Shown: positions 3,001 through 49,767 of the stretch, piece after piece
How positions within the stretch are numbered: the stretch's first letter is position 1
How the letters are laid out: each line of letters starts with the position of its first letter
From: Streptomyces sp. NBC_00878
GTDB taxonomy: Bacteria > Actinomycetota > Actinomycetes > Streptomycetales > Streptomycetaceae
NCBI RefSeq assembly: GCF_026341515.1
Contig: NZ_JAPEOK010000001.1
Coordinates: forward strand, 186,001-250,000
Direction: 5' to 3'
Length of the DNA: 64,000 nucleotides
The notes under the pieces: generated by a model
Database searches by the model: none
The model's input: only the letters and a program-made list of their open reading frames with translations
Told to the model about the DNA's origin: nothing
Position numbers and translations under genes: made by a program

Positions 3001-3595
3001 CCGGGCCCTCCAGGCCGAGGACGTAGGAGAGCCGCCCGGACAGCACGCTGTTGGAGACGCCGGTGGAGCCGTGGCCGTCGATGCCGCCCTCGACGGCGGT
3101 CAGCAGGCCGGCGTAGTCCTGCTGGGAGACGCCCGCGAACACGCCGGTACGGCTGCCCTTGAGGGCGCGGGTGTCGAGCCCGGCCCGCTCCAGGGCCTCC
3201 CAGGAGCTTTCGAGCAGCAGCCGCTGCTGGGGGTCCATGGAGTGGGCCTCGCGCGGCGAGATGCCGAAGAACGCGGCGTCGAAGGCGGCGATGTCGTCGA
3301 GGAAGCCGCCCTCGCGGACGTAGCAGGTGCCTTCCTTGGCGGGGTCGGGGTCGTAGAGGGACGCAAGGTCCCAGCCCCGGTCGGTGGGGAAGCCGGCGAT
3401 GGCGTCGCGGCCCTCGTCGACGAGCCGCCACAGGTCGTCGGGGCTCGCCACCCCGCCGGGGTAGCGGCAGGCCATGCCGACGACGGCGATCGGTTCCCGG
3501 GCAGCCGACTCCAGCTCGCCCAGCCGCCCCCGCGTCCGGTGCAGTTCCGCGGCGACCTGCTTGAGGTAGTCGCGGAGTTCGTTGTCCTCAGCCAT
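1..3595 (-). CDS. Type I modular PKS, module 7 (KS-AT-DH..., 3' end outside window)
   Basis: Fourth PKS gene of the collinear series, partial: it starts at ATG 3595 and is still open at base 1. The N-terminus ([16 protein letters not shown]...) is a class 1 docking coiled coil, so it accepts the chain from the upstream gene. KS (about residues 33-460) has the active VDTACSSS motif. The AT has GQGSQW and GHSQGE, but in place of YASH (methylmalonyl) or HAFH (malonyl) it reads [10 protein letters not shown] (His758), the length and form of ethyl/alkylmalonyl ATs (IPGVDTAGHS type). The DH is degenerate: the catalytic His position reads Tyr ([14 protein letters not shown]) and the second catalytic Asp reads Glu ([10 protein letters not shown]), so dehydration is unlikely. 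KR, ACP and anything further lie outside. It starts 9 bp after the stop of the preceding PKS gene, so it is probably co-transcribed. Inference: module 7 adds an alkylmalonyl unit and leaves a hydroxyl if a KR follows. Confidence 0.95.
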
Positions 3596-3604
3596 GCGAA
3601 CCGT

Positions 3605-6600
3605 TCACTCCTTGCCGAGTTCGGTGCGGATGAAGTCCAGGAGCTCGTCGTCCGAGGCGGCGGCGAGCCGGGTGTCGACGTCGGCCTCGACCGGTGCCGG
3701 ACCGGCCGCCCCGGCCTCGGCCAGGGCCCGCAGCCGTGCGGCGAACCGGGGCCGTTCGGGGTCGCCCGCGTCCAGTTCGGCGAACGCCGACTCCAACTGG
3801 CCGAGGAGGACGGGCAGTTCGGGCCGGGTGGCCTCGGTTCCCGTGCCGAGCCGCCGGTCGAGTTCCGCGGCGAGCGCGGTGGGGGTCGGGTGGTCGAAGA
3901 CCAGGGCGGCGGGCAGCGCCAACCCGGTGGCCGCGGCGAGGGTGTTACGCAGCTCCACCGCGGTCAGCGAGTCGAACCCGACCTCGCGAAAGGCGCGATT
4001 CGGGTCGACGCCGTCGGCCGAGGGATGGTCGAGGACGGCGGCGGCGCGGGAGCGCACCAGGTCCAGCAGGGCGCGGAAGCGGTCCGCCGGGGCGAGGGCG
4101 GCGAGCCCGGTGCCGGGGACCGGGTCGACGACCGTACGGGCCGGTGCGGCACCGGCCGGGACCAGGTCGCGCAGGGCCGCGGGCAGTGTGCCGGCCTCGG
4201 CGCGCGCCCGCAGGGCGGTCCGGTCGGTGCGCATCGGCAGCAGGACGGCGTCCCGGGCCGCCCACGCCTGGTCGAACAGGTTCAGGCCCTGTGCGGCGTC
4301 CAGGGGCAGGACACCCGCCTTGGCCATGCGCCTGCGGTCGAGTTCGCCGATCCGGGCGCCCATACCGCCGCCGGTGCCCCACAGGCCCCACGCGAGCGAG
4401 GTGGCGGGCAGTCCGGCACTGCGGCGGGTACGGGCGAGGGCGTCCAGGACGGCGTTGGCCGCCGCGTAGTTGGCCTGGCCCGCGCCGCCCAGGGTGCCGA
4501 CGGCCGAGGAGAACAGGACGAACCGGTCCAGGTCCAGACCCCGGGTCAGCTCGTGCAGGTGGTGGGCCGCGTCCGCCTTGGCGCGCAGCACGGTGTCGAT
4601 CCGCTCGGCGGTGAGCGAGGTGAGGACACCGTCGTCGGTGACCCCGGCCGTGTGGACGACGCCGGTCAGCGGACGGTCGTCCGGGATGCCGTTGATCAGG
4701 GCGGCGAGCGCGTCCCGGTCCCCGGCGTCGCAGGCCGCGAACACCGGCCGGGCTCCAGCCTGTTCGAGGTCGGTGGCGAGTTCGTCGGCGCCCGGCGCGG
4801 TGGCGCCGCTGCGGCTGACCAGCAGCAGGTCCCGTATGCCGTGGACGCTCGCCAGATGCCGGGCGACGAGCGCGCCCAGCTCACCGGTCGCCCCGGTGAT
4901 CAGCACGGTGCCGGACGCGCGCGCCTCGACGGCCGGTTCCGGGTCCGCCACGGTGAGCCGCAGCACGTGCGGCCGGCCCTGGCGGACGGCGAGTTGGGAC
5001 TCGCCGCCCTGGTGGGCGGTGGCGATGGCGGACGCCAGCTCGGGCGCGTCCACGGTGTCGTCGTCGAGGTCGATCAGGAGCAGCCGGTCGGCGTGCTCGG
5101 CCTGCGCGGACAGCGCGAGCCCCCAGGCGGCGGCCCGCGCGGGCCCCCCGGTGGTGGCCCCGCCGGTCACCGTGATGACACGAGCCGCCGAGAGCCGCTC
5201 GTCGGTGAGGACGGCTTGCAGCAGCGCGAGCGCGTCGTGCGCGGAACGCCGTACCGCTTCCGGGCCGTCAGTGCCGGGTGCGGTCTCCAGTGCGAGGACG
5301 ATCAACTCGGCGCCCTCCGCGACGGATTCGGGCCCCGCGTGCGCCGTACCTCCCAGCGCTTCGGCGAGGATCCCGGCCCGCCCTTCGGGCCTCCCGACGA
5401 CCGCCCAGTGCGCGCCGGTCGCGGGCTTCTGCGGCTCGACCGGGCGCCACTCGGGCGCGTACAGCTCGGGGGTGTCGGGGGCGGCGGCGTGGCGGGTGGT
5501 CTCCAGCCAGTACGGCACGTGCTGGAAGGCGTACGTCGGCAGCTGGGCGCGGCGGGCTCCGGGCAGCAGCGCCGCCCAGTCGACGACGACACCGCGCACG
5601 TGCAGCCGCCCGAGCGCGACGGCCAGGCTCCGCGTCTCCTCCCGCCCGGTGCGCAGCGCGCCCAGGGCGAGCACGCCGGGGGCGGTGTCCTCGACGAGGG
5701 TGACGAGGGAACCGTCCGGGCCGAGTTCGAGGACGGTCGTGACGTCCTGGTCCCGCACGGTCCTGACCCCGTCGGCGAAGCGGACGGCGGCGCGGACGTG
5801 GCGTACCCAGTACTCGGGGGTGGCCAGCTCCTCCCCCGCGATCTCGCCGGTGACGTTCGAGACGACCGGGATCACCGGCGCCTCGTACGCCACGTCGCCC
5901 AGTACCTGGGCGAAGTCGTCCAGCATCGGGTCCATCAGTCCCGAGTGGAACGCGTGGCTCACCTTGAGCTGCTTCACCCGGCGGCCCTGAGCCGCGAACC
6001 CGTCCGCGACCTCCTTGACGGCGACCTCCTCACCGGAAAGCACCAACGCACGGGGGCCGTTGACAGCCGCGAGCCAGACACCGGGGGTGTCGGTCAGTTC
6101 GGACTCCTCCGCCTCCACGGCCCACATGGCACCGCCGGACGGCAACTCCTGCATGAGTCGGCCGCGTGCGGCTACGACCCGGCAGGCGTCCTCCAGCGAC
6201 CACACCCCCGCGACGAAAGCGGCCACCAACTCGCCCAGGGAATGCCCGAGTACGACGTCGGGACGCACTCCCCAGGACTCCAGCAGCCGGTACAGCGCGA
6301 CCTCGACCGCGAACAACGCGGGCTGGGCGAGACCGGTCTCCGCCAACTCCTCAGCCGTGCCGTCGAACACCGCCTCCCTCAGCGCCAACCCCTCAAAAGC
6401 GGCGCACACTTCATCGAACGCGGCGGCAAACACCCCGTACGCCTCGTACAACTCCCGCCCCATCCCCACCCGTTGCGACCCCTGACCCGAGAACACCACC
6501 GCGAGCCCCCCGTCCGCCGGGGTGTCGGTGACGGTGGGGCCGTCGGTGGCGAGGGCGGCGAGGGCCTGGTGGAGGCCGTCCCGGTCGGTGGCGGCGAGGA

Positions 6601-9600
6601 CGGTGGCGGTGGGCAGGACGGCGCGGGTGGTGGCGAGGGAGCGGGCCAGGTCGCCGGGGGTCAACTGTGGGTGGACCGTGAGGTGTTCGGCGTGGCGGGC
6701 GGCCTGGGCGCGCAGGGCGGTGTGGTCCCAGGCGGACAGCACGATCGGTACAACACCGGCGGGAGGATGCTCGGTTGGGGCCTCGGCCTCCGGCTCCGTC
6801 TGCTCCCCCTGTTCCGCCTGTTCCGCCTGTTCCGCCTGTTCCAGGATGACGTGGGCGTTCGTCCCGCTGATACCGAAGGAGGAGACGCCCGCGCGGCGGG
6901 GTCGTCCCGTCTCCGGCCAGGGCTGGTTCTCGGTGAGCAGTTCGACGGAGCCGGCGGACCAGTCCACCTCCGGGGTGGGCTCGTCGATGTGCAGGGTCTT
7001 CGGCAGGAGGCCTTCGCGCAGGGCGAGGACGGTTTTGATGATCCCGCCGACGCCCGCGGCGGCCTGGGTGTGGCCGATGTTGGACTTCAACGAGCCGAGC
7101 AGCAAGGGCCGTTCGCGGTTCTGGCCGTAGGTCTCCAGGAGCGCCTGGGCCTCGATGGGGTCGCCGAGCCTGGTTCCGGTGCCGTGCGCCTCGACGGCGT
7201 CGACCTCGTCGGGGGCGAGCCCGGCGCCGGCCAGCGCGTCGTGGATGACACGTTGCTGGGAGGGGCCGTTGGGCGCGGTGAGACCGTTGGAGGCGCCGTC
7301 CTGGTTGATCGCGCTGCCGCGTACGACGGCCAGCACCGCGTGGCCGTTGCGGTGGGCGTCCGAGAGGCGCTCGACGACGAGCATGCCCGCGCCCTCGGCG
7401 AGGGCGAAGCCGTCTGCGGCGGTGGCGAACGCCTTGCTGCGGCCGTCGCGGGCGAGGGCCTGCTGGCGGCTGAAGCCGACGAAGGAGGAGGGTTCGGACA
7501 TGACAGCCGCGCCGCCCGCGAGGGCCAGGTCGCACTCCCCGGCGCGCAGCGCCTGCACGGCGAGGTGCAGCGCGACCAGGGAGGAGGAGCAGGCGGTGTC
7601 GACGGTGACCGCCGGGCCCTGGAGGCCGAGGGTGTAAGAGATGCGGCCGGAAGCGACACTGGCAGCGGCGCCGGTGGCGAAGTAGCCCTCGACGTCGCCG
7701 ACGGCGTCCAACAGACGTGTGGTGTGGCCCTGTTCGCTGATGCCGACGTAGACGCCGGTGCGGGAGCCGCGCAAGGTGGTCGGGACGATCCCGGCGCGCT
7801 CCAGGGCCTCCCAGGAGGTCTCCAGGAGGAGTCGCTGCTGGGGGTCCATGGAGAGGGCCTCGCGCGGCGAGATCCCGAAGAATCCGGCGTCGAAGAGGGC
7901 CGCGTCGTGCAGGAAGCCGCCCTGGTCGACGTAGCTGGAGTCGGCGGTGGCCTCGTCGGGGTCGTACAGCCGGTGCAGGGGCCAGCCCCGGTCGGCGGGG
8001 AAGCCGCTGACGAGGTCGGCGCCCTCGGTGACCGCCCGCCACAGCTCCTCGGGGGAGCCGATGCCGCCGGGGAAGCGGCAGCTCATGGCGACGACGGCGA
8101 TGGGTTCGTCGCGGTCGGCGGCGCGGACCACGACTGGGGCCGCCGGGCGGTCCTGGGCACCGAAGAGCCTCTCGCCGAGGTAGGCGGCGAGGGCGGTCGC
8201 GGTGGGCTGGTCGAAGACGAGCGTGGAGGGCAGCCGGACGCCGGTCGCGGTGGCGAGCCGGTTGCGCAGGTCGACAGCGGTCAGGGAGTCGAAGCCGAGG
8301 TCGCGGAAGGCCCGTTTGGGGTCGACGGCGTCCGCGCCCGCGTGGCCGAGGACTCCGGCGGCGTGTTCGCGGACGAGGTCGCGCAGGGCGCGGGTACGGG
8401 CGCCCTGGTCGAGTCCGGCGAGGGTGCGGGCCAGTTCGGAGGCGGGGGCGGCGGCTCCGGCGGGCTGCTCGTCCTCGGACCGCGGGCGGGCCTCGGGGAG
8501 TTCGTCGAGGAGGTGGCTGGGGCGGCTGGTGGTGAAGACCTCGGCGAAGCGGGGCCAGTCGACGTCGGCGAGGAGCACGGAGACATCACCGTCGGCGAGG
8601 ACGGTGCGCAGTCCGGCGACGGCCGTCTCGGGCTCGATGACGGGCAGGCCGGTCAGCCGCAGCTGGTCGTAGATGGTGTCGGAGACCATGCCGCCACCCG
8701 CCCAGGGACCCCAGGCGACGGAGAGCGTGGGGACGCCGTCGGCGCTGCGACGCTCGGCGCGGGCGTCGAGGACAGCGTTGCCCGCGGCGTAGACGCCGTG
8801 GTCGGCGGCGCCCCAGACGGCGGTGACGGAGGAGAAGTAGACGACGGCGTCCAACTGGGCCGGATCGAGGGCGGCTTCGACGTTGTCGATGCCGGTGACC
8901 TTGGCGGCCAGCACGGCGGTGAGGTCCTCGAACGGCGCCTCGGCGACGGGTCCGCCGACGCCGACTCCGGCCGCGTGGACGACGGCCCGGATCAGGTCGC
9001 CGTCGCGTTGGAGGTCGTCCAGGGTGGCGGCGACGGCGGCCCGGTCGGCGGTGTCGCAGGCGACGAGGGTGACCTTCGTGCCCGACTCCTCCAGTTCGGC
9101 GGCGAGTTCGGTGGCACCCGGCGCCTCGGGCCCCCGGCGGCTGAGCAGGATCAGGTGCTCGGCGCCGTCCTCCGCGAGCCAGCGGGCGATGTGCGTACCG
9201 AGGGCGCCGGTGCCGCCGGTGACCAGGACGGTGCCGTTCGGGCGCCAGCCGGGGTTGGGGTGGGCGGGCGGCCCGGTGTGGACCAGGCGGCGGGCGAGGA
9301 CGCCGGCGGGGCGCAGGGCGACCTGGTCCTCACCGTCGACTCCGGCGAGGACGGTGAGGAGCTGGTCGACGGTGGCCGCGTCGAGGGCGGTCGGCAGGTC
9401 GATCAACCCGCCCCACTGGTGGGGCAGTTCGACGGCGGCGCAGCGGCCGAGCGCCCATACGGCGGCCTGCGCAGGGTCGGCGGGCCCGGCGTCGTCGGCG
9501 GTGCCCTGGGCGCCCTGGGTGAGGCACCACAGGGGCGCGGTGACGCCTGCTCTCACGAGCCCCTGGAAGAGGGCGAGCGTGGTGGCGAGGCCGGTCGGGA

Positions 9601-12600
9601 CGTCGGGGCTCGCCGGGTGCGGGGTCGTGTCGGCGCCGGTCAGCGTGACCACGGCGGTCGGGGCGGCTTCGCGGATCCGGTCGGCGAGGGTGTCGGGAGT
9701 GTCGTACGGCGAGACGCTCAACACGACGGCGTGCTCGGCGCGTTCGCGGACGGCGCCGGCGACCTCGCTGAGCGCGGTCGTCTCCGGCACGGCGATCAGC
9801 CAGGTGCCCGGCAGGGTGGCGGGGGCGGCCGGGGTGGTGAGGGGGCGCCAGTCGACGGCGTAGCGCCAGGCGTCGATGGTGTCGCGCTCGCGTCGGCCCT
9901 GCCGCCAGCCGGCGAGCGCGGGCAGGACGGCCGTCAGGGCGCCGCTGTCGGGCAGGTCGAGCACGGTGGCCAGCGCTCCGGCGTCCTGGGCGTCGACGGC
10001 CCGCCAGAAGTCGTCGTGCGCCGGGTCGGCCGTTCCGGTGCCCGTGGGCAGGGTCTGTGGCCAGATGCGGGTGTGCTGGAAGGCGTAGGTGGGCAGGTCG
10101 ACCGGTCGCGCGGGGCCTTCGGGGTAGGCGGGCGTCCAGTCGACGGGGACGCCGCCGACGCAGAGTTCGGCCAGGGAGGCGAGCATCCGGGCCGGTCCGC
10201 CCTCGTCGCGGCGCAGCGTGCCGGTGACGAGGGGTTCGACGTCGGCGTGCTCGGCGGTCTCGGTGAGCGGGGCGGTCAGCACCGGGTGAGGGCTGATCTC
10301 GACGAAGACGTGGTGTCCCGCCGTGAGAAGCCCGCTGACGGTCGGTTCGAGGCGGACGGTGGAGCGCAGGTTGCGGTACCAGTACTCGGCGTCCAGTCCG
10401 GCCGTGTCGAACAGCCCGGCCTCGACAGTGGAGTGGAACGGCACGGTGGCCGTCGTGGGCGTGATCCCGTGCAGCGCGGAGACGACCGCGTCCCGGATCT
10501 CCTCGACGTGCGCCGAGTGGGAGGCGTAGTCCACGTCCACCCTGCGGGCCCGTCCACCGCACGCGGTGACCTCGGCGAGCAGCTCCTCCGTGTCGGCGGG
10601 GGCACCCGCGACGACCACCGACGAGGGCCCGTTGACGGCGGCGATGTCGACGCGCCCGTCGGCCACGGCCTTCAGGGCCCGCGTCTCGTCGGCGGACATC
10701 TGGACGGAGACCATGGCACCCCGTCCGGAGAGCGCGAGGATGGCCTGCGAGCGCAGGGCGACCACGCGTGCGCCGTCCCGCAGGGTCAGCGCGCCCGCGA
10801 CGACGGCCGCCGCGATCTCCCCCTGCGAGTGCCCGACGACGGCGGCCGGTTCGACCCCGTAGGACCGCCAGACCTCGGCGAGCGACACCATCACGGCCCA
10901 CAACACGGGCTGGACTACGTCGACCCGCTCCAACTCGCCGTGCAGGACGTCCTTCAGCGACCAGTCGACGTACGCCGACAGCGCCCGCTCACACTCGGCC
11001 ATCCGTGCCGCGAACACCGGGGAGGAGTCGAGGAGTTCAAGCGCCATCCCCGTCCACTGCGACCCCTGACCCGGGAACACGAACACCGGTCCGCGCCCGG
11101 TCGGCTGGGCACAACCCGTGGTGACGGCCGGGGCGGTGGCGGTGCCGTCGGCCAAGGCGCGTACGGCGGCGAGGAGTTCGGCGCGGTCGCGGCCGACGGC
11201 GACGGCGCGGTGTTCGAAGAGGGTACGGCTCGACAGCAGGGCCCGGCCGACGTCGGTCGCGGTGCCGGGGCTGGTGTCGAGGTGGTCGGCGAGGCGGGCG
11301 GCCTGGGCGCGCAGGGCCTCGGGGGTGCGGGCGGACAGCAGCCAGGGGCGCGGGGCCGGTTCCTCGTCCGGGGTCTCGGCGGGGGTGTCGGCGGGGATCT
11401 CGGCGGGGGGTGCTTCGGGGGCCTGTTCGAGGATGACGTGGGCGTTGGTGCCGCTCATGCCGAAGGAGGAGACGCCCGCGCGGCGCGGTCGGCCGGTCTC
11501 GGGCCAGGGCTGGTTCTCGGCAAGTAGTTCGACGGAGCCGGTGGTCCAGTCGACCTGCCGGGTGGGCCGGTCGGCGTGGAGTGTGCGGGGCAGGACGCCC
11601 GCGCGCAGGGCGAGGACGGTCTTGATGACGCCGCCGACTCCGGCCGCCGCCATGGTGTGCCCGATGTTGGACTTCAACGAGCCGAGATACAGCGGGTGTT
11701 CGCGCTCCTGCCCGTAGGTCGCGAGCACGGCCTGGGCCTCGATCGGGTCGCCGAGCCGGGTGCCGGTGCCGTGGGCCTCGACGGCGTCGACCTCGTCGGG
11801 CCTGAGGCCGGCGTTGGCGAGGGCCTGGGCGATGACGCGCTGCTGAGCGGGACCGCTGGGGGCGGTGAGCCCGTTGGAGGCGCCGTCCTGGTTGATCGCG
11901 GAGCCCCGGACCACGGCCAGCACCGGGTGCCCGTTGCGGCGGGCGTCGGAGAGGCGTTCGACGACGAGGACGCCGACGCCCTCGCCCCAGCCGGTGCCGT
12001 CGGCGTCGTCGGAGAAGGCCTTGCAGCGGCCGTCGGAGGCGAGGCCGCCCTGGCGGGCGAACTCCAGGAAGCCGCCCATGGTGTTCATGACGGTGACACC
12101 GCCCGCGAGCGCCAGGTCGCACTCCCCCGCGCGCAGTGCCTGCCCGGCGAGGTGCAGGGCGACGAGCGACGACGAGCAGGCGGTGTCGACGGAGAGGGCG
12201 GGGCCCTCCAGGCCGAGGAGGTAGGAGACCCGGCCGGAGACGACGCTGCCGGCCGTGCCGGTCATGACGTGGCCCTCGGTCTCGGGGGACGCGGCCAGCA
12301 CCCCGGCGTAGTCGGAGCCCGCGGTGCCGGAGAAGACACCGGTTCGGGAGCCGCGCAGGGCGGCCGGATCGAGCCCGGCGCTCTCCAGGGCCTCCCAGGT
12401 GGTCTCCAGGAGTTGGCGCTGCTGGGGGTCCATGGCGAGGGCCTCGCGCGGGGAGATTCCGAAGAACCCGGCGTCGAACTCGGCCGCGTCGTGCAGGAAT
12501 CCGCCCACTGTCGGGGCACCCGCGTCGATGCGGCGCAGGGCGGCGGTGTCCCAGCCGCGGTCGCGGGGGAAGGGGGTGATGCCGTCGACGCCGTCGGTGA

Positions 12601-15600
12601 CCAGCCGCCACAGCGACTCGGGTCCGGTGACGCCGCCGGGGAAGCGGCAGGCCATGCCGACGACGGCGAGGGGCTCGTCGAGGAGTGTGGCGCGGGTGAC
12701 GGCGGGCAGTGCGTCCGCGTCGCCGTTGAGGAAGGCGAGGACGGCTTCCGGGGTGGGGTGGTCGAAGACCAGGGTGGCGGGCAGGGCGCGCCCGGTCTCC
12801 TCGGCGAGGAGGTCGCGGAAGCGGACGGCGGACAGGGAGTCGAAGCCCAGCTCGTCGAAGGAGCGGTCGGCCGGTACGGCGTCGGCGCCCGCGTGTCCGA
12901 GGACGGCCGCGGCGGCGCCGCGCACGAGGTCGAGATCGGCTCCTTGGACGCGTGAGGCGGCCGGGCGGGGCGCGTTGAGGAGGGGGGCGGCGGGCAGCAG
13001 GCTCGCGGAGCCCGGGGTGGCGGGCAGCCAGTAGTGCTCGCGCTGGAAGGGATAGGTGGGCAGGGTGGCCCTGAGGTACGGGTCGGTGCCGGTGCCGAGG
13101 ACGGCGACCCAGTCGACGGGGGCGCCCTGGATGTGGAGGCCGGCGAGGGCGGTGAGCAGGGCGGTCGGTTCGGCGTGGTCGCGGGGCAGCGCGGGCACGC
13201 AGACCGGGCCGCCCTCGGGCAGGCAGTCGCGGGCCAGGACGCTGAGCGCGCCGCCGGGCCCGATCTCCAGGCAGGCGGTGACGCCCTCGGCGGCGAGGGC
13301 GCGCACCCCGTCGTGGAAGCGGACGGCCTCCCGGACGTGCCGTACCCAGTACTCGGCGGTCCGCAGCTCCTCCCCCGCCAGTTCTCCGGAGACGTTGGAG
13401 ACGACGGGGATCGCCGGGGCATGGTAGGTGAGCCCCTCGGCGATCCGCCGGAACTCGGCCAGCATCGGTTCCATGAGCGGCGAGTGGAAGGCGTGGCTGA
13501 CCTTGAGGCGGCGGATGCGCAGCCCGCGTTCCGCGCACAGGGCGGCGGTCGCGTCGATGGCGGTCGCGGGGCCCGAAAGGACGGTGGCACGCGGCCCGTT
13601 GACGGCGGCCACGGCGAGCTGTCCGCCGGTCCCGGCCGCCTCCAGCAGCTCGGGCACCTCGTCCTCGGGCATCTCGACGGCGAGCATCGCGCCGCCCTCG
13701 GGCAGCGCCTGCATGAGCGTGGCGCGGGCGGCGACCAGGGTGCAGGAGTCGTCGAGGGAGAGCACCCCGGCGGTGTGCGCGGCGGCGAGTTCGCCGACGG
13801 AGTGGCCGAGCAGCAGATCGGGGGCGATCCCCCAGTGCTCCAGGAGCCGGAAGAGCGCGACCTCCACGGCGAACAGGGCGGTCTGCGTGTGGGCGGTGCG
13901 CCCGAGCAGTTCGTCGGATTCCAGCGCCTCGGCCAGGGGCCGCTCCAGCAGCGGGTCGAGGCGGGCGCGTACGGCGTCGAAGGCCTCGGCGAACACGGTG
14001 TGGGCGGCGTACAACTCGCGGCCCATGCGGGCGCGTTGGGCGCCCTGGCCCGTGAAGAGGAAGGCGAGTTTGCCGTGCGGGCGGGCCGTGCCGCGTACGG
14101 CGTGGGCGTGCGGGCGGCCCTGGGCGAGGGCGTCGAGGCCGGCGTGCAGCTCTTCGGGCGTGGTGGCGGTGACGGCGGCGCGGTGCGGGAAACGGGCGGC
14201 GGCCGGGGCGAGAGCGCGGGCCAGGGCGGGCGTGGCGGGGGCGTGGTCGCGGAGGAGGGCGGCGTGGTCGCGGAGGGCTTCGGGGGTGCGGGCGGACAGC
14301 AGGAGCGCGGTGGGGCGGCCGTCCGTCTCGGGGGCGGGGACCTGTTCGGCGTCCGGGACCTGTTCGGCGTCCGGGGCCTGTTCGAGGATGACGTGAGCGT
14401 TGGTCCCGCTGATGCCGAACGACGACACGCCCGCGCGGCGCGGACGGCCGGTCTCGGGCCAGGGCTGGTTCTCGGCCAGCAGTTCGACGGCACCGGTACT
14501 CCAGTCGACCTCGGTGGTCGGAGTCTCCAGGTGCAGGGTCTTCGCGAGGACACCGGCCCGCAGTGCCATGACGGTCTTGATGACGCCGCCGATGCCCGAC
14601 ACGGCCTGCGTGTGCCCGATGTTGGACTTCAACGAACCGAGATACAGCGGGTGTTCACGGTCCTGCCCGTAGGTCGCGAGCAGCGCCTGCGCCTCCACGG
14701 GGTCGCCGAGCCTCGTGCCCGTCCCGTGCGCCTCGACGGCGTCGATCTGACCGGGGCTGAGCCCCGCGTCGGTGAGGGCGGCGCGGATGACGCGTTCCTG
14801 GGCGGGGCCGTTGGGCGCGGTGAGGCCGTTGGAGGCGCCGTCCTGATTGACGGCGCTGCCCCGGATCACGGCGAGGACGGGCCGACCCTCGCGTACGGCG
14901 TCGGAGAGCCGGACCAGCACCAGCACTCCGGCGCCCTCGCCCCAGCCGGTTCCGTCGGCGGTGTCGGCGAACGACTTGCAACGTCCGTCGCCCGCGAGGC
15001 CGCCCTGGAGAAGGAACTCCTCGTACAGTCCCGGCGCGGCCATCACCGCGGCGCCGCCGACCAGCGCGAAGGAGCACTCGTGGGCGCGCAGCGCGCGGGT
15101 GGCGAGGTGCAGGGCGACCAGGGAGGACGAGCAGGCGGTGTCGACGGTGAGGGCGGGGCCCTCCAGGCCGTAGTGGTAGGAGAGGCGGCCGGAGGCGACG
15201 CTGCTGGTGGTGCCGGTGAGGATATGGCCGCGTACCTCGCCGAGAGCGACCTCGCCGTGCGGACCGTACTTCTGGTCGGTCAGGCCGACGAACACCCCGC
15301 CGTCGGTGCCCTTGAGGTCCGCCGGATCGAGTCCGGCGCGCTCGACGGCCTCCCAGGAGGTCTCCAGGAGCAGCCGCTGCTGGGGGTCCATGGCGAGGGC
15401 CTCGCGCGGGGAGATCCCGAAGAACGAGGCGTCGAACTCGCCGGCGTCGTAGAGGAATCCGCCTTCGAGGCGGACTCCGGCGTCGGCGAGGGCGCGGGTG
15501 TGCCAGCCACGGTCCTCCGGGAACGGGCCGATGGCGTCCCGGCCTTCGCGCACCAGGTCCCACAGAGCCTCGGGGGTGTCGGCCCCGCCGGGGAAGCGGC

Positions 15601-15727
15601 AGGCCATCGCCACGACGGCCACCGGTTCCTGGCGGTCTGACTCCAGTTCGCTCAGCCGGTTGCGGGTGCGCTGGAGGTCGGCGGTCACCCGCTTGAGGTA
15701 GTCAACAACCTTCTCGTCGTTCGCCAC
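3605..15727 (-). CDS. Type I modular PKS, modules 4-6 (KS-AT-ACP, KS-AT-KR-ACP, KS-AT-KR-ACP)
   Basis: 4040 aa, GTG start at 15727 with GGAG 6 bases upstream. An N-terminal docking helix ([16 protein letters not shown]) precedes module 4: KS 33-460 (Cys199), AT 550-850 with HAFH (malonyl), ACP 920-1000 and no reductive domain, so a beta-ketone is left. Module 5: KS 1014-1435, AT 1540-1850 with YASH (methylmalonyl), KR 2160-2345 without LDD and with the Trp of A-type KRs (VTAVWGAADHGVY), ACP 2440-2515. Module 6: KS 2537-2960, AT 3072-3370 with HAFH, KR 3600-3785 with a TDD (B-type) motif and YAAAN, ACP 3880-3960. The protein ends in a docking tail (SDDELLDFIRTELGKE). AT6 is almost the same as AT3 at DNA level. 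Post-KS linkers carry repeats (EQA and DAEQVP). The substrate is the module 3 product; acts as a cytoplasmic homodimer. Confidence 0.97.
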   Translation of the reverse strand: MANDEKVVDYLKRVTADLQRTRNRLSELESDRQEPVAVVAMACRFPGGADTPEALWDLVREGRDAIGPFPEDRGWHTRALADAGVRLEGGFLYDAGEFDASFFGISPREALAMDPQQRLLLETSWEAVERAGLDPADLKGTDGGVFVGLTDQKYGPHGEVALGEVRGHILTGTTSSVASGRLSYHYGLEGPALTVDTACSSSLVALHLATRALRAHECSFALVGGAAVMAAPGLYEEFLLQGGLAGDGRCKSFADTADGTGWGEGAGVLVLVRLSDAVREGRPVLAVIRGSAVNQDGASNGLTAPNGPAQERVIRAALTDAGLSPGQIDAVEAHGTGTRLGDPVEAQALLATYGQDREHPLYLGSLKSNIGHTQAVSGIGGVIKTVMALRAGVLAKTLHLETPTTEVDWSTGAVELLAENQPWPETGRPRRAGVSSFGISGTNAHVILEQAPDAEQVPDAEQVPAPETDGRPTALLLSARTPEALRDHAALLRDHAPATPALARALAPAAARFPHRAAVTATTPEELHAGLDALAQGRPHAHAVRGTARPHGKLAFLFTGQGAQRARMGRELYAAHTVFAEAFDAVRARLDPLLERPLAEALESDELLGRTAHTQTALFAVEVALFRLLEHWGIAPDLLLGHSVGELAAAHTAGVLSLDDSCTLVAARATLMQALPEGGAMLAVEMPEDEVPELLEAAGTGGQLAVAAVNGPRATVLSGPATAIDATAALCAERGLRIRRLKVSHAFHSPLMEPMLAEFRRIAEGLTYHAPAIPVVSNVSGELAGEELRTAEYWVRHVREAVRFHDGVRALAAEGVTACLEIGPGGALSVLARDCLPEGGPVCVPALPRDHAEPTALLTALAGLHIQGAPVDWVAVLGTGTDPYLRATLPTYPFQREHYWLPATPGSASLLPAAPLLNAPRPAASRVQGADLDLVRGAAAAVLGHAGADAVPADRSFDELGFDSLSAVRFRDLLAEETGRALPATLVFDHPTPEAVLAFLNGDADALPAVTRATLLDEPLAVVGMACRFPGGVTGPESLWRLVTDGVDGITPFPRDRGWDTAALRRIDAGAPTVGGFLHDAAEFDAGFFGISPREALAMDPQQRQLLETTWEALESAGLDPAALRGSRTGVFSGTAGSDYAGVLAASPETEGHVMTGTAGSVVSGRVSYLLGLEGPALSVDTACSSSLVALHLAGQALRAGECDLALAGGVTVMNTMGGFLEFARQGGLASDGRCKAFSDDADGTGWGEGVGVLVVERLSDARRNGHPVLAVVRGSAINQDGASNGLTAPSGPAQQRVIAQALANAGLRPDEVDAVEAHGTGTRLGDPIEAQAVLATYGQEREHPLYLGSLKSNIGHTMAAAGVGGVIKTVLALRAGVLPRTLHADRPTRQVDWTTGSVELLAENQPWPETGRPRRAGVSSFGMSGTNAHVILEQAPEAPPAEIPADTPAETPDEEPAPRPWLLSARTPEALRAQAARLADHLDTSPGTATDVGRALLSSRTLFEHRAVAVGRDRAELLAAVRALADGTATAPAVTTGCAQPTGRGPVFVFPGQGSQWTGMALELLDSSPVFAARMAECERALSAYVDWSLKDVLHGELERVDVVQPVLWAVMVSLAEVWRSYGVEPAAVVGHSQGEIAAAVVAGALTLRDGARVVALRSQAILALSGRGAMVSVQMSADETRALKAVADGRVDIAAVNGPSSVVVAGAPADTEELLAEVTACGGRARRVDVDYASHSAHVEEIRDAVVSALHGITPTTATVPFHSTVEAGLFDTAGLDAEYWYRNLRSTVRLEPTVSGLLTAGHHVFVEISPHPVLTAPLTETAEHADVEPLVTGTLRRDEGGPARMLASLAELCVGGVPVDWTPAYPEGPARPVDLPTYAFQHTRIWPQTLPTGTGTADPAHDDFWRAVDAQDAGALATVLDLPDSGALTAVLPALAGWRQGRRERDTIDAWRYAVDWRPLTTPAAPATLPGTWLIAVPETTALSEVAGAVRERAEHAVVLSVSPYDTPDTLADRIREAAPTAVVTLTGADTTPHPASPDVPTGLATTLALFQGLVRAGVTAPLWCLTQGAQGTADDAGPADPAQAAVWALGRCAAVELPHQWGGLIDLPTALDAATVDQLLTVLAGVDGEDQVALRPAGVLARRLVHTGPPAHPNPGWRPNGTVLVTGGTGALGTHIARWLAEDGAEHLILLSRRGPEAPGATELAAELEESGTKVTLVACDTADRAAVAATLDDLQRDGDLIRAVVHAAGVGVGGPVAEAPFEDLTAVLAAKVTGIDNVEAALDPAQLDAVVYFSSVTAVWGAADHGVYAAGNAVLDARAERRSADGVPTLSVAWGPWAGGGMVSDTIYDQLRLTGLPVIEPETAVAGLRTVLADGDVSVLLADVDWPRFAEVFTTSRPSHLLDELPEARPRSEDEQPAGAAAPASELARTLAGLDQGARTRALRDLVREHAAGVLGHAGADAVDPKRAFRDLGFDSLTAVDLRNRLATATGVRLPSTLVFDQPTATALAAYLGERLFGAQDRPAAPVVVRAADRDEPIAVVAMSCRFPGGIGSPEELWRAVTEGADLVSGFPADRGWPLHRLYDPDEATADSSYVDQGGFLHDAALFDAGFFGISPREALSMDPQQRLLLETSWEALERAGIVPTTLRGSRTGVYVGISEQGHTTRLLDAVGDVEGYFATGAAASVASGRISYTLGLQGPAVTVDTACSSSLVALHLAVQALRAGECDLALAGGAAVMSEPSSFVGFSRQQALARDGRSKAFATAADGFALAEGAGMLVVERLSDAHRNGHAVLAVVRGSAINQDGASNGLTAPNGPSQQRVIHDALAGAGLAPDEVDAVEAHGTGTRLGDPIEAQALLETYGQNRERPLLLGSLKSNIGHTQAAAGVGGIIKTVLALREGLLPKTLHIDEPTPEVDWSAGSVELLTENQPWPETGRPRRAGVSSFGISGTNAHVILEQAEQAEQAEQGEQTEPEAEAPTEHPPAGVVPIVLSAWDHTALRAQAARHAEHLTVHPQLTPGDLARSLATTRAVLPTATVLAATDRDGLHQALAALATDGPTVTDTPADGGLAVVFSGQGSQRVGMGRELYEAYGVFAAAFDEVCAAFEGLALREAVFDGTAEELAETGLAQPALFAVEVALYRLLESWGVRPDVVLGHSLGELVAAFVAGVWSLEDACRVVAARGRLMQELPSGGAMWAVEAEESELTDTPGVWLAAVNGPRALVLSGEEVAVKEVADGFAAQGRRVKQLKVSHAFHSGLMDPMLDDFAQVLGDVAYEAPVIPVVSNVTGEIAGEELATPEYWVRHVRAAVRFADGVRTVRDQDVTTVLELGPDGSLVTLVEDTAPGVLALGALRTGREETRSLAVALGRLHVRGVVVDWAALLPGARRAQLPTYAFQHVPYWLETTRHAAAPDTPELYAPEWRPVEPQKPATGAHWAVVGRPEGRAGILAEALGGTAHAGPESVAEGAELIVLALETAPGTDGPEAVRRSAHDALALLQAVLTDERLSAARVITVTGGATTGGPARAAAWGLALSAQAEHADRLLLIDLDDDTVDAPELASAIATAHQGGESQLAVRQGRPHVLRLTVADPEPAVEARASGTVLITGATGELGALVARHLASVHGIRDLLLVSRSGATAPGADELATDLEQAGARPVFAACDAGDRDALAALINGIPDDRPLTGVVHTAGVTDDGVLTSLTAERIDTVLRAKADAAHHLHELTRGLDLDRFVLFSSAVGTLGGAGQANYAAANAVLDALARTRRSAGLPATSLAWGLWGTGGGMGARIGELDRRRMAKAGVLPLDAAQGLNLFDQAWAARDAVLLPMRTDRTALRARAEAGTLPAALRDLVPAGAAPARTVVDPVPGTGLAALAPADRFRALLDLVRSRAAAVLDHPSADGVDPNRAFREVGFDSLTAVELRNTLAAATGLALPAALVFDHPTPTALAAELDRRLGTGTEATRPELPVLLGQLESAFAELDAGDPERPRFAARLRALAEAGAAGPAPVEADVDTRLAAASDDELLDFIRTELGKE

Positions 15728-15830
15728 GGGTTCTCCGATGGGCCGCTTCGGTACAGGGGCAGGGGGTCGGGGCCGGGGGTCGAGGGTCGAGGCCGGGGGT
15801 CGGGGCCGGGGCCGGGGGTCGGGGTGCCGG
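15728..15830. repeat. G-rich low-complexity spacer between PKS genes
   Basis: 103 bp between the stop of the modules 2-3 gene and the GTG of the modules 4-6 gene. On the plus strand bases 15766-15830 are built from runs of 3-5 G (units like GGGGCCGGGGGTC and CGAGGGTCGAGG), so the transcribed PKS mRNA is C-rich here. The plus strand could form G-quadruplexes. The only other element is the ribosome site for the downstream gene (GGAGAACCC before GTG). The other two PKS gene junctions overlap by 4 bp or are 9 bp apart, so this gap is unusual. No promoter motif was seen. Confidence 0.6.
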
Positions 15831-21800: not shown

Positions 21801-24800
21801 CCGCTGCTGGGGGTCCATGGCGAGGGCCTCTCGCGGGGAGATGCCGAAGAACGCTGCGTCGAAGTCGGCGAGGCCGGGCAGGAAGCCTCCCCTCGATGTG
21901 GCGACGTCGAGAGCGGCGGGCCAGCCCCGGTCGGTGGGGAAGGCGCCGATTCCGTCGCGGCCTTCGGCGACCAGCCGCCACAGGTCCTCGGGGTTTTCGA
22001 CGCCGCCGGGGAAGCGGCAGGCCATGCCGACGACGGCGACGAGGTCGTCGTCGCCCGGGTCCGGACGGGCGGCACGGGTCTCGGAGGCCGGGGCGGGCGG
22101 AGTGGTGGCGAGCAGGTGGGTGCGGAGGGCGGTGGCGACGGCGGCCGGGGTGGGGTGGTCGAAGGCGAGGGTGCTGGGCAGGGTCAGGCCGGTGGCGGTG
22201 GCGAGCCGGTTGCGCAGGTCGACGGCGGTGACGGAGTCGAGGCCGAGGTCGCGGAAGGCGCCGGTGGCAGTGACCGCGTGGAGGTCGGGGTGGCCGAGGG
22301 CGGCGGCAGCGGCGGTGCGCACGAGGTCGAGGAGGTGCCGGTCACGGTCGCGGTCGGTGAGGGGTGCCAGCTTCTCGGCGAGCGTAGGGCCGTCGGCCGA
22401 GGCCTGGGACGGTGCCGGGGCCGGGACCTGGGCGGTTTCGGGGATGTCGTCGAGGAGGGGGCGTCGGCGGGCCGCCGAGTAACCGGCGGCGAACGTCGGC
22501 CAGTCCATGGCGGTGACGGTGAGGGTGGTCTCGTCGGCGCCGACCGCGTCGAAGAGGGCGGTGAGGGCGGTGTCCGGGTCCATGCTCCGCAGGCCGACCC
22601 GGTCGAAGAGGCGCTGGGCGACGGCGTCGACCATGCCGCCGCCCGCCCAGCTGCCCCAGGCGACGGACGTGGCGGTGAGACCCCGCGCGCGGCGGTCGGC
22701 GGCGAGGGCGTCGAGGTGGGCGTTGGCGGCCGCGTAGGCGGCCTGGCGGGCGCCGCCCCAGACGGCGGCGCCGGAGGAGAACAGGACGAAGGCATCCAGG
22801 TCCAGGTGCGCGGTCAGCTCGTCGAGGTGGCGGGCGCCGTCGGTCTTGCCCGCGGCGGCCTCGGTCAGGCCGTCGGGTGTGGTGTCGTCGAGCCGGGTCA
22901 GGGCGGTGACACCGGCGGTGTGCACGACCGCGTGGGGCGGGTGCTCGGCGATGACGGCGGCGAGGGCGTCCCGGTCGCCCGCGTCGCAGGCGGCGATCGT
23001 CACCTCGGCGCCCAGGGCCCGCAGTTCGGCGGCGAGGTCAGCCGCTCCGGGCGCTTCGGGGCCGCGTCGGCTGGTGAGGACGAGGTGCTGGGCACCGTCG
23101 CTCGCGAGTCTGCGGGCGACGCGGGCGCCGAGGGCTCCGGTGCCGCCGGTGACCAGGACGGTGCCCCGGGGGGACCAGGCGGTGCCGGTGGGGCGAGGGG
23201 TGCGGGTCAGCCGCCGGACCAGCGGGCCGGTGGCGCGCAGGGCCCACTCCTGTTCGTCGCCGGGGGCGGCGAGGACGGCGGCCAGGGCGGCGGCGGTACG
23301 GGCGTCCAGGTCGCGGGGCAGGTCGACGAGCCCGCCCCACCCGTCGGCCCACTCCAGCCCGGCGACCCGGCCAAGGCCCCACACCTGGGCCTGTTCGGGT
23401 ACGGCGCCCTCGGTGTCGGCGGTGGCGACGGCGCCCTGGGTGAGGGTCCACAGGGGGGCGTCCGTGTTCAGGGTACGCAGAGCCTGGACGGCGGTGAGGG
23501 TGGTGACGGTGCCGATGGGGACCGTGGGGTGATCGGGGTGAGGGCGGGTGTCGAGGGCGAGGAGGGAGACGACGCCGGTCGCGTCCGCGAAGAGAGCGGC
23601 GTCGGCGTCCTGGGGCACCGTCGGGCGGCGTACTTCGAGGGCGCCGTGTGCGGTGAGGACCTCGGCGGTCCAGTCGGCGGCGGCGCAGTCCTCGGGTGCG
23701 AGGAGGACCCAGGTGCCGGTGAGCGGACCGGCGGTGAGCGGGGCGGGCTTCCAAGTGACCATGTACCGCAGGGCGTCGGTGGCGGCGCGCTCGCGGGTAC
23801 GGGTGCGCCAGGTCGCGAGGGCGCGGACGGCTCCGTCGAGGCCGTCGTCGTGCGGGACGCCGAGCTGCCGGCCGACGGCTTCGGTGTCGCCGCGGTCCAC
23901 GGTCCGCCAGAGTTCGGCGGTGGCGGGGTCCTCGGCGGGGGCCGGGGCGGGGCGGTCCAGCCAGTGGCGGGTTCGCTGGAAGGCGTGGGTGGGCAGTTCG
24001 GTGCGGCGGGCGCCGGTCCCGGCGAAGAGGGCGGTGAAGTCGACGGGGGCGCCGTGTACGTGGGCTTCGGCGAGCGCCTCGGTGAACCGGCGGGGGCCGT
24101 CGGTGTCCCGGCGCAGGGTGCCGATCACGGCGGCGGGTGCCTCGGCGGTGTCCAGGGTGTCCTGGAGGGCGTGGGTGAGCACCGGGTGGGGGCTGGCCTC
24201 GATGAAGAGGGTGTGGCCGTCGGCGAGGAGGGCGTGGGTGGCCTCTTCGAAGCGGACGGTGTGGCGCAGGTTGCGGTACCAGTAGCCGGCGTCGAGGTGG
24301 GTGGTGTCGGCGCGGCCCGGCGTGACGGTGGAGTAGAAGGCGGTCGTGGCCCGGTGCGGGGTGACCGGGGCGAGGAGGGTGCGCAGTTCGTCCTCTACGG
24401 CGGTGACGTGGGCGGAGTGGGAGGCGTAGTCGACGGCGACTCGGCGGGCGCGGACTCCGTCGCGTTCGCAGGCGGCGAGAAGTGCGTCGAGGGCGTCGTC
24501 GTCCCCGGCGACGACCGTGGCGGCGGGGCCGTTGAGGGCGGCGACGTCGATCCGGCCTGGCCATTCGGCGAGGCGGGCGCGTACGGCGTCGCCCGGTTCG
24601 GCGACGGAGACCATGCCGCCGCGCCCGGACAGCGCGGTCAGGGTCCGTGACCGCAGGGCGGCGACGCGGGCGCCGTCCGCCAAGGACAGTGCCCCGGCGA
24701 CGACGGCCGCCGCGATCTCTCCCTGGGAGTGCCCGACGACGGCGTCGGGGCGGACTCCGCAGGCGGCCCACAGTTCGGCGAGGGAGACCATCACCGCCCA

Positions 24801-26662
24801 CAGGACGGGCTGGACGACGTCGACGCGGGTGAGCAGGCCGGCGGCGTCCTCGGCGCGCAGGACGTCGGTGAGCCGCCAGTCGACGAAGGCCGACAGGGCC
24901 TCCTCGCACTCGGCCATGCGGCGGGCGAAGACCGGGGAGGAGTCGAGGAGGTCGACGGCCATCCCGGCCCACTGCGAGCCCTGGCCGGGGAAGACGAGCA
25001 CGGTGCGGGCAGGTCCGGCCGGGGTGCTGCCGTGGACCGTTCCGGCGGGCGCGGTGCCGTCGGCGAGCTGGTCGAGCAGCGGGGTCAGGGCCGCCAGGTC
25101 GGGGGCGAGGGCGACCGCGCGGTGCGGGAGGTGGGCGCGGGCGGTGGCGAGGGTCCAGGCGAGGTCGGCGGGCGGGGTTGCCTCGGAGAGGTGCCGGTGG
25201 AGGGCGCGGGCCTGGGCGGGGAGCGCGGCCGGAGTGCGGGCGCTCAGCGGGAACGGCAGCAGGGGCGGGGCGGTGAAGACGGGCGTCCCGGGGGCGTCCG
25301 GGGCGCCGGGGACCGTCGTATCGGCCGGGGCCTGTTCGACGATGACGTGGGCGTTCGTACCGCTGATGCCGAACGACGACACACCCGCGCGGCGCGGCCG
25401 GTCCGCCTCCGGCCAGGGCTGTGGCTCGGTGAGCAGCCGGATGCCGCCTGAGGACCAGTCGACCTCGCCGGTGGGCTCGTCGGCGTGCAGGGTCTTCGGC
25501 AGGAGGCCCTCGCGCAGGGCGAGGACGGTCTTGATGACCCCGGCGACTCCGGCGGCGGCCTGGGTGTGCCCGATGTTCGACTTCAACGAGCCGAGGTACA
25601 GCGGGCGTTCACGGTCCTGCCCGTAGACGGCGTGCAGCGCCTCGGCCTCGATGGGGTCGCCGAGCCGGGTGCCGGTGCCGTGCGCCTCGACCACGTCGAC
25701 GTCCGCCGGGCCGATCCCGGCGTCGGCGAGGGCGGCGCGCAGGACGCGTTCCTGGGCGGGGCCGCTGGGGGCGCTCAGCCCGTTGGAGGCGCCGTCCTGG
25801 TTGACGGCCGTGCCACGTACGACGGCCAGCACCGGGTGCCCGTTGCGGCGGGCATCGGAGAGCCGCTCGACGAGTATCAGGGCCGCGCCCTCGGACCAGC
25901 CGGTGCCGTCCGCTCCGGCGCCGAAGGCCTTGCAGCGCCCGTCGGCGGCGAGGCCGCCCTGGCGCTGGAAGCTGAGGAAGGTCCCGGGGGTGGACAGCAC
26001 GCAGACGCCGCCGACGAGGGCGAGGGAGCAGTCGCCCCGGCGCAGGGACTGGGCGGCCAGGTGCAGGGCGACCAGGGAGGAGGAGCAGGCGGTGTCGACC
26101 GTAACGGCCGGTCCGTCGAAGTCAAAGGTGTAGGCGATGCGGCCGGAGGCGACGCTGGCGGTGGTGCCGGTCAGGACGTGTCCGCCGACGTCGCCCTCGG
26201 CCTCGTCGAGGCGGGGGCCGTAGTCCTGGGCGACGAGCCCGGTGAAGACTCCGGTGTGCCGGGCGGCCGGGGAGCGGGGGTCGAGTCCGGCGTGCTCGAA
26301 GGCCTCCCAGGCGGTCTCCAGCAGGAGCCGCTGCTGCGGGTCCATGGCGGCGGCTTCGCGCGGCGAGATGCCGAAGAAGGCGGGGTCGAAGGAGGCGATG
26401 TCCGGGAGGAAGCCGCCGGGGTAGGAGTCGTCCCATCCGCGCCGCTCCGGGACCGGTCCGATGGCGTCGCGGCCCTCGGCGAGCAGTCGCCACAGCTCAC
26501 GCGGCGAGTCGGCGCCGCCGGGCAGCCGACACGCGAGGCCGACGATCGCGAGGCGCTCGCGGGCGTCTTCCTCCAGCCGGTGCAGCCGTCCCCGCGTCTC
26601 GTGCAGCTCCGCGGTGACACGCTTGAGGTAGTCGACCAACCTCTCGGCTTCCGACATGTCCG

Positions 26663-26666
<4 letters not shown>
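15831..26666 (-). CDS. Type I modular PKS, modules 2-3 (KS-AT-KR-ACP, KS-AT-DH-ER-KR-ACP)
   Basis: 3611 aa, ATG at 26666 overlapping the upstream stop (ATGA). An N-terminal coiled-coil docking segment ([20 protein letters not shown]) is present. Module 2: KS 38-460 (Cys194), AT 553-860 with YASH (about residue 745, methylmalonyl), KR 1165-1350 with A-type signature (no LDD in place, [10 protein letters not shown]), ACP 1440-1515 (GLDS). Module 3: KS 1538-1950, AT 2045-2345 with HAFH (malonyl), DH about 2405-2680 with intact [10 protein letters not shown] and DAVLH, ER about 2850-3150 with NADPH motif [17 protein letters not shown] 3170-3360 with TDD (B-type), ACP 3450-3520. Module 3 therefore reduces fully to methylene. 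The C-terminal docking tail is [13 protein letters not shown]. Together the modules add a methyl-branched unit with a hydroxyl, then a two-carbon unit with full reduction, as required on the starter side of a spiroacetal ketone. Confidence 0.97.
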
Positions 26667-35059
<8,393 letters not shown>

Positions 35060-35139
35060 CCGGGGGCCTCCCTGGGACGGGGCCCGGCGGTGGTCCCGGG
35101 TCCGGTGGGCTGTGGGGCGGGTGGGCCGGCGCCGGCGGG

Positions 35140-35667
35140 TCAGCGGCGGAATCGCACGATGTCCCCGGGGACGAGGTCCTCGCCGATGTAGACGTAGCCC
35201 TTCTTGAGGACGGAGCCGTCCTCGTCGATCTCGTAGTCGTCGACGAAGCGGTGGCGCCCGCCGAAGACGGAGCTGTCGCCGGTGATCCGGAAGTGGCCGT
35301 CCTCCCAGCCGGGGCTGGTGAAGGTGCCGTGGTGGCCCCAGTCGTCGTAGTAGAAGGAGACGAAGTGGCCCTCGATGTCACTCCAGCCGATCAGCCAGAC
35401 GGCGGTGATGCCGGGGACGGGGATGTACTGGGTGATCTCGTGGAACCGGCCGTCGGCCAGGGCCTTGCCGGAGGAGGTGGCCCGACCGGTGGTGACCTGC
35501 TCGGTGGTCAGGTTCGTGTATTCCAGCCGGAATTCACCGAGGAGGAAATCGAGCTGCTTCATTTCCTCTGCTATTTCGTTCCGCTCCGGAAAGACGACAT
35601 CTCCGCCGGCGGCGGGAACGGATTCCGGCGCGGTGTGGTCCATGGACTGAACAGACTGGTCGCTCAT
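35140..35667 (-). CDS. Small beta-rich protein, candidate spiroacetal cyclase (OssO/OlmO type)
   Basis: 175 aa, ATG at 35667 ([11 protein letters not shown]) with CGGAG upstream; an in-frame extension to 35769 has no ribosome site and runs into the promoter. There is no signal peptide. The sequence alternates short strands and turns ([48 protein letters not shown]), looking like an all-beta barrel akin to DUF1579-type folds. It is the first gene of the leftward PKS transcript, 80 bp before the loading module. Known: in ossamycin and oligomycin clusters a small beta-barrel protein (OssO/OlmO) catalyses spiroacetal formation on the macrolide. The domain order of the PKS here predicts exactly such a spiroacetal, so this assignment rests on context and fold type, not on an alignment. 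Alternative: a generic SnoaL/DUF1579-like protein of unknown role. Confidence 0.6.
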
Positions 35668-35907
35668 GAGTGAACTCCGAGGAAGTAAAGGGCAGCTGGA
35701 AAAAAGGGGCCGCTCCCGCCGTCCGGGACACGATCCACAAGCTATCGAACCGAGCGGTTGTCCAGGCAAGCCCGGACCGGCCGGTTAGGGGTGCCCGGGG
35801 TGCTTTTCCGGGGCCCCTTTAGGGGTGTCCGGTCCGGTCGGCACGTGGTTAATCTGGCCGCCGACGGGACGGGCTCACCGTCCGGTTCCCCTCCGAGGAG
35901 CAAGACG
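35668..35907. promoter_or_regulatory. Divergent promoter region with paired TTAGGGGTGYCCGG sites
   Basis: 240 bp between the leftward cyclase-PKS transcript and the rightward P450. Two nearly equal 14-bp direct repeats stand at 35785-35798 (TTAGGGGTGCCCGG) and 35819-35832 (TTAGGGGTGTCCGG), 34 bp apart start to start. The second also forms a small palindrome CCCCT-TT-AGGGG (35814-35825). A related copy lies upstream of the CCR gene. This looks like an operator for a cluster-specific activator; which regulator is unknown and none is encoded in the window. The P450 ribosome site is GAGGAG at 35895-35900. Confidence 0.5.
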
Positions 35908-49760: not shown

Positions 49761-49767
49761 GGAGCCC

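Follow-up and report, generated by a model that had tools for sequence, protein, structure and literature searches.

The 64,000-nucleotide stretch of Streptomyces sp. NBC_00878 analyzed here (the window) is C1:186001-250000, where C1 is contig NZ_JAPEOK010000001.1, a 10.2 Mb contig of an 11.1 Mb genome in six contigs. On its gene content and domain order the modular polyketide synthase (PKS) locus that it contains is a spiroacetal macrolide cluster of the ossamycin/phthoramycin type. Just beyond the left end of the window the two PKS genes with which such clusters end (A7 and A8) are replaced by one fused gene that has a module fewer, and the middle module of this gene is a chimera, A7-like from the ketosynthase (KS) to the start of the acyltransferase (AT), and A8-like in the ketoreductase (KR) and acyl carrier protein (ACP), with the crossover in the AT. 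The explanation that we consider probable overall is that fusion of A7 and A8 in an ossamycin-type locus has left an assembly line of 13 modules that makes a 20-membered spiroacetal product. The fused gene lies to the left of the window, and the shortening of the line was therefore invisible in the initial annotation, which was made from the window.

The fused gene and its chimeric module

The cluster was read leftward beyond the window in the host genome, and rightward within it, and domains were assigned by Pfam together with domain-by-domain BLAST using the window's own domains. Two comparator clusters were read completely, those of Streptomyces sp. HM190 and of a second genome, G228. Both end in A7 (a malonyl-KR then a methylmalonyl-KR module) and A8 (a methylmalonyl-KR then a malonyl-DH-KR module, where DH is dehydratase, and a thioesterase, TE), and by our count both have 14 modules. 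The G228 count includes a split module; its A6-like gene (L056) is divided between overlapping open reading frames (ORFs), with the KS in one and the AT-DH-ER-KR-ACP (ER, enoylreductase) in the other, due to a frameshift or a sequencing error. In NBC_00878 a single ORF of 5003 amino acids at C1:163887-178898 on the minus strand (-22113 to -7102 in window coordinates) encodes malonyl-KR, methylmalonyl-KR and malonyl-DH-KR modules followed by the TE, i.e. three modules in place of four. The TEs of the HM190 and G228 A8 proteins are 78-79% identical to that of the fused protein. Among the best 20 of 217 relatives of this TE (E<=1e-20), 13 have two KS domains and six have one and an incomplete N-terminus, so that three are found only here; this count excludes the lower-ranked relatives among the 120 listed of the 217, which have TE identities of <=42% and include some longer proteins. 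The KS of module 14 (KS14) is well conserved, being 88-94% identical to that of HM190 in the seven relatives checked. When all contigs of the NBC_00878 assembly were searched for it, the best KS was 75% identical, and this is the cluster's own KS13.

The middle module was aligned with two modules 13 (from the A7 of HM190 and G228) and eight modules 14 (from A8). We took as diagnostic the 90 sites at which both modules 13 are equal, at least 7 of the 8 modules 14 are equal, and the module 13 letter is absent from module 14. At 43 of these the middle module is module 13-like, at 40 it is module 14-like, and at 7 it is neither. The last module 13-like site is module residue 523; up to this point the ratio is 43:4 in favor of module 13, while from residue 737 onward it is 0:36, i.e. 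every site that matches either parent is module 14-like. A single breakpoint fits 79 of the 83 informative sites, which was reached in none of 20000 shuffles, and it falls in the AT (C1:172178-172820). The phylogeny of the two parts gives the same result. The KS part falls in the A7 module 13 clade (support 100/99). For the KR-ACP part the intact A8 module 14 of S. roseirectus is the sister (100/99), and both lie inside the A8 module 14 clade (95/98), in a tree with three outgroup rows on long branches. The position of this part next to an intact A8 indicates that the deletion is the derived state. Within the AT interval, at module nt 1587-2177, modules 13 and 14 of HM190 are identical over five DNA runs of 74-203 nt.

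Homologous recombination between the methylmalonyl ATs of modules 13 and 14 would account for this structure, removing the unit from AT13 to AT14, with loss of one module and fusion of A7 to A8. After such an event KS13 would still take the chain from module 12, and KS15 would still take the chain made by KR14-ACP14. Both KS domains would thus keep their usual upstream chains, which favors a working assembly line.

Cluster type, module order and spirocyclase

Membership of the ossamycin type was judged on propionate loading by a KSQ, on modules 1-8, on a crotonyl-CoA carboxylase/reductase (CCR) with a FabH, and on 14 modules that end in A7 (two modules) and A8 (two modules and TE). The locus has KSQ/propionate loading, inactivated DH domains in modules 1 and 7, an AT7 with the motif SPGH, and both CCR and FabH; it departs in having 13 modules and the three-module fused gene. 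The ossamycin cluster of S. hygroscopicus var. ossamyceticus (OssA1-A8, OssO) has the same domain order in modules 1-8, the same Arg in DH1, Tyr in DH7 and SPGH in AT7, monomodular A5 and A6, and LuxR, CCR, FabH and P450 genes, with ossO beside A1 (PMC6490886). Compared with that account there is one methylmalonyl-KR module fewer here (13 rather than 14) with A7 and A8 fused, three P450s were found instead of four, no L-ossamine genes were found in the flanks, and the A5-A6-regulator block is at the end opposite to its place in ossamycin (PMC6490886). The HM190 cluster, for 22-membered phthoramycin/kaimonolide-like macrolides, has an equal gene set without sugar genes and with three P450s (PMC7333363). 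The module order is the same up to module 12. HM190 has separate A7 and A8 genes and 14 modules, so that the product here is predicted to have one methylmalonyl-KR unit fewer and a ring smaller by two atoms. The locus agrees with both comparators, HM190 and G228, in gene set and module order, including AT7 SPGH and the dead DH1 and DH7. Leftward extension of the contig, which the initial annotation had proposed as a check, thus revealed an ossamycin-type gene set. The annotation had left the choice between oligomycin and ossamycin kinds open; the latter stands, and an oligomycin-type locus was rejected on the cyclase clade, on AT7 (a branched extender at module 7) and on the gene set.

The modules of the window are encoded on the minus strand. 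PKS A1 (26663-35059) has a loading module with KSQ (SGQSSS), AT (YASH) and ACP, and module 1, KS-AT(HAFH)-DH-KR-ACP. A2 (15831-26666) contains module 2 (AT YASH, KR) and module 3 (AT HAFH, DH-ER-KR), and A3 (3605-15727) module 4 (AT HAFH), module 5 (AT YASH, KR) and module 6 (AT HAFH, KR). Modules 7 (AT SPGH, DH His changed to Tyr, without KR) and 8 (AT HAFH, DH, KR) belong to A4, the N-terminal part of which occupies window 1-3595 and which runs left to C1:180191. Re-derivation by Pfam and BLAST gave the order of modules in the initial annotation, except that it had overlooked the inactive DH of module 1 (28886-29476, minus strand; PF21089, E 1e-17). The catalytic His in its 13-residue motif is Arg, a change also stated for ossamycin DH1 (PMC6490886). 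A KR-only outcome would follow, leaving the predicted chain unchanged. In module 4, a KS-AT-ACP at 12740-15631 (minus strand, limits by BLAST), a search for KR, DH and ER between the AT and ACP gave no match. This agrees with the ketone that had been proposed there, and the KRs of modules 2 and 6, the source of both spiroacetal hydroxyls, have motifs that are intact by eye.

The AT of module 2 (window 24051-25001) carries the methylmalonyl motif YASH, as does AT2 of HM190, while its orthologues insert malonyl wholly or partly. Ossamycin AT2 is described as of methylmalonyl type and yet inserting malonyl (PMC6490886), and HM190 is reported to yield both compounds that carry a methyl at C-26 and compounds that lack it (PMC7333363). 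Because AT2 is lax in this family, the methyl that had been assigned to module 2 (C24) is uncertain; it may be absent or mixed, though the motif was read correctly. The discrepancy makes AT2 a useful case for AT specificity.

The ORF at 35140-35667 (minus strand) encodes a protein of 175 amino acids, and the initial annotation had suggested that this is an OssO/OlmO-like spiroacetal cyclase. It matches PDB 7sfp ('Spirocyclase') over residues 1-175 (E 1.7e-78) and 7sfn ('OlmO - oligomycin spirocyclase') over query residues 31-173 (E 5.7e-29). The annotation had named the lack of a fold or profile match to OssO/OlmO as grounds for refuting its proposal, and at the level of sequence the proposal passes this check. 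The first 30 letters of the 7sfp chain equal those of the ossO product of S. ossamyceticus NRRL B-3822, and hence 7sfp is most likely OssO. A 2022 paper on enzyme-catalyzed spiroacetal formation reportedly goes with the two structures. The protein matched no Pfam or NCBIfam family. Sixteen proteins in our protein collection (its own included) match it at E<=1e-3, the most distant of which (P0016, 41%) has PF07617, named DUF1579; these homologues and the full-length match to a solved structure indicate that this small ORF is real. In a tree of 17 rows, which carries a long-branch warning, it lies in the OssO clade (100/99), apart from OlmO-like proteins, although OlmO of S. avermitilis itself was not among the rows. 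Within that clade it forms a subclade (100/100) with S. roseirectus 'NlmOI', P0003 and P0001, the last of which is 87% identical. Identity is 59-66% to six OssO-like proteins and 33-36% to six more distant ones. Among 392 genomes drawn from the genus, 26 contain a match at E<=1e-3 and five at <1e-50 (own included), and three draws of genomes for closer relatives gave no cyclase of >65% identity except its own. The gene is 80 bp from A1, and ossO of the ossamycin cluster likewise adjoins the PKS gene of the loading module. With a PKS chain that has the module 4 ketone and a delta-hydroxyl on either side from the KRs of modules 2 and 6, we conclude that this is a spirocyclase of the OssO type, with its catalysis a prediction from homology and context.

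Predicted product and alternative explanations

The PKS would start with propionate, module 4 would leave a ketone (the future spiro carbon) flanked by a delta-hydroxyl on each side, and the OssO-type cyclase would close two six-membered rings around it. FabH and CCR would provide the branched extender used by module 7, and up to three P450s might hydroxylate the product, with no glycosylation by the locus. Thirteen extension modules give 3 + 2x13 = 29 backbone carbons, and thus a 20-membered lactone if there is no iteration. The predicted aglycone has C2=C3, C4-Me, C5-OH, C7-OH, C8-Me, C12=C13, a branched C14, a C15 ketone, a spiro C21 to which C17-O and C25-O are joined, the lactone at C19-O, and C27-OH. 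The 6,6-spiroacetal topology and the 2-hydroxybutyl side chain of the initial annotation agree with the published logic of ossamycin (PMC6490886) and HM190 (PMC7333363) biosynthesis. Its interpretation is supported overall, the spiroacetal itself being a prediction. In a limited literature check we found no report of a 20-membered ring in the ossamycin-type spiroacetal class.

There is a laboratory precedent for such a contraction. In the rapalog strains obtained by accelerated evolution, the majority of the new PKSs were functional, and deletions with junctions inside the AT join ATs of equal specificity (PMC5663706). As proposed here, modules were deleted by recombination at AT junctions with contraction of the ring; the differences are that those events were induced in the laboratory rather than occurring in a natural genome, and that the present junction merges two separate genes (PMC5663706). 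On balance we lean toward the view that the locus is a natural counterpart of accelerated evolution, in which recombination between ATs of the same specificity deleted an AT-to-KS unit and fused A7 and A8, leaving a working line for a 20-membered 6,6-spiroacetal skeleton.

Several observations count against the explanation that we favor. The crossover is not perfectly clean, with 4 of the 47 sites to its left A8-like and 7 of the 90 matching neither parent. The long exact runs shared by modules 13 and 14 of HM190 occur also in the KS and KR, so that the AT is not the sole possible site of recombination. The A7 reference comprises only two sequences (HM190 and G228) and does not include A7 of S. 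roseirectus; no such A7 was among the matches listed in a homologue search with the module 12 AT-KR region, where giant multi-module PKSs dominate the score. Furthermore, collapse of near-identical ATs during assembly would leave an identical chimera, the breakpoint falls where modules 13 and 14 of HM190 are nearly identical, and the fused protein is represented by one member sequence on one contig, our own. The real locus would then have A7 and A8 and 14 modules, with a 22-membered product (24-membered with iteration). Long reads normally span a module of 4-5 kb, and the 10.2 Mb contig in a genome of six contigs suggests that they were used, making collapse unlikely. In addition KS14 is missing from every contig, the best KS falling well short of the identity between orthologues. 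We regard an artefact as unlikely. That the 13-module state is ancestral, with the 14-module relatives arising by duplication of one methylmalonyl-KR module, would be in keeping with the close similarity of their modules 13 and 14 in places. A simple ancestor would be expected to lie outside both clades, but the KR-ACP part is nested in one and the KS part in the other, and we give this possibility very little credence.

The loss of the module could be real and the ring size nevertheless conserved, if the A5-like module 9 is used twice to give a 22-membered macrolide with an altered pattern of methyl and hydroxyl groups. We know of no sequence mark of module iteration. The ossamycin PKS has been proposed to use its module 9 twice (PMC6490886), and the same here would give the 22-membered ring. 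By contrast the 22-membered products of HM190, which has 14 modules by our count, call for no iteration (PMC7333363). The number of extending modules in HM190 is itself a matter of interpretation, and this too counts against our reading; its authors treat the A5-like S1 as non-extending, counting it as a free-standing module that makes an extender (PMC7333363). We have adopted the view of the ossamycin authors, and we note that the HM190 numbering implies a backbone of 31 carbons, which would need 14 extensions. Iteration at this locus seems improbable. The remaining alternative is a dead or dying cluster, in which the fused PKS stalls and makes little product. Loss of titer is common in engineered fusions. 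The motifs checked in this PKS look intact, with DTACSSS in 13 of 13 extender KS domains, GHSxG in all ATs, and KR and expected active DH motifs intact by eye (ER and ACP motifs lay outside the check). Most of the new rapalog PKSs were functional, and their junctions inside the AT joined ATs of the same specificity, like that here (PMC5663706); we consider a failing cluster to be quite unlikely.

Surrounding genes and implications

To the right of the spirocyclase gene lie a P450 in the position of OssK (35758-37119, plus strand; PF00067, E 8.8e-32), for which HM190 has a similarly long ORF in an equal place and on the same strand, and a second P450 in the position of OssL (37263-38486, minus; PF00067, E 2.9e-25). 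These are followed on the minus strand by two genes predicted to function in branched extender supply, an OssD-like FabH-type ketoacyl-ACP synthase III (38527-39516; PF08541, E 4.8e-26) and the OssC-like CCR (39513-40889; TIGR01751, E 4.6e-160, above cut-off), the best copies of which are 85-86% identical in all four of the ossO-bearing genomes tested. Outside the window to the left are a third P450 (C1:178947-180146, minus), between A4 and the fused PKS, then a LuxR-family regulator (C1:160840-163539, minus), an A6-like monomodular methylmalonyl DH-ER-KR PKS (C1:154278-160760, plus) and an A5-like monomodular malonyl DH-ER-KR PKS (C1:147547-154221, plus; start codon unsure). Relative to ossamycin and HM190 this block (C1:147547-163539) has changed ends, showing that the cluster has also been rearranged. 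The ORF L003:125-886(+), considered for the type II thioesterase at the place of OssA9, has no Pfam match and overlies a sigma-factor-like gene (by eye) in another frame on the minus strand; a counterpart of OssA9 is therefore not claimed.

No deoxysugar genes, including those for L-ossamine, were found among the 26 flanking ORFs scanned, the genome beyond the flanks being outside the search. The only sugar-related matches there were a GT2/GtrA-type glycosyltransferase and a C-terminal EryCIII-like fragment. The short ORF at window 57729-58430 (plus) has just the C-terminal domain of a macrolide-type glycosyltransferase (PF06722, E 2.1e-15) and is possibly a truncated gene, ~17 kb beyond the edge of the cluster. 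At window 48783-52664 there are two convergent genes for FAD-binding oxidases, one with a berberine-bridge domain, adjoining a protein with an antibiotic-biosynthesis-monooxygenase domain. Many more type I PKS ketosynthases are present at C2:233910-369617 and C3:97072-119211 on other contigs, so that this genome holds other large modular PKS clusters as well.

The spiroacetal part of this system is of a known kind, and the unexpected aspect is the shortened assembly line. It provides a clean natural example of shrinkage of a modular synthase, for which the parent modules, the interval of crossover, the nearest intact relative among those compared and the predicted product can all be named. The locus would permit testing whether nature uses the AT-to-AT junctions that have been proven in engineered synthases, and whether a shorter chain is accepted by OssO, by the TE and by the P450s. 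A member of the class with a 20-membered ring would probe the relation of ring size to inhibition of ATP synthase, an activity expected here from that of its relatives.

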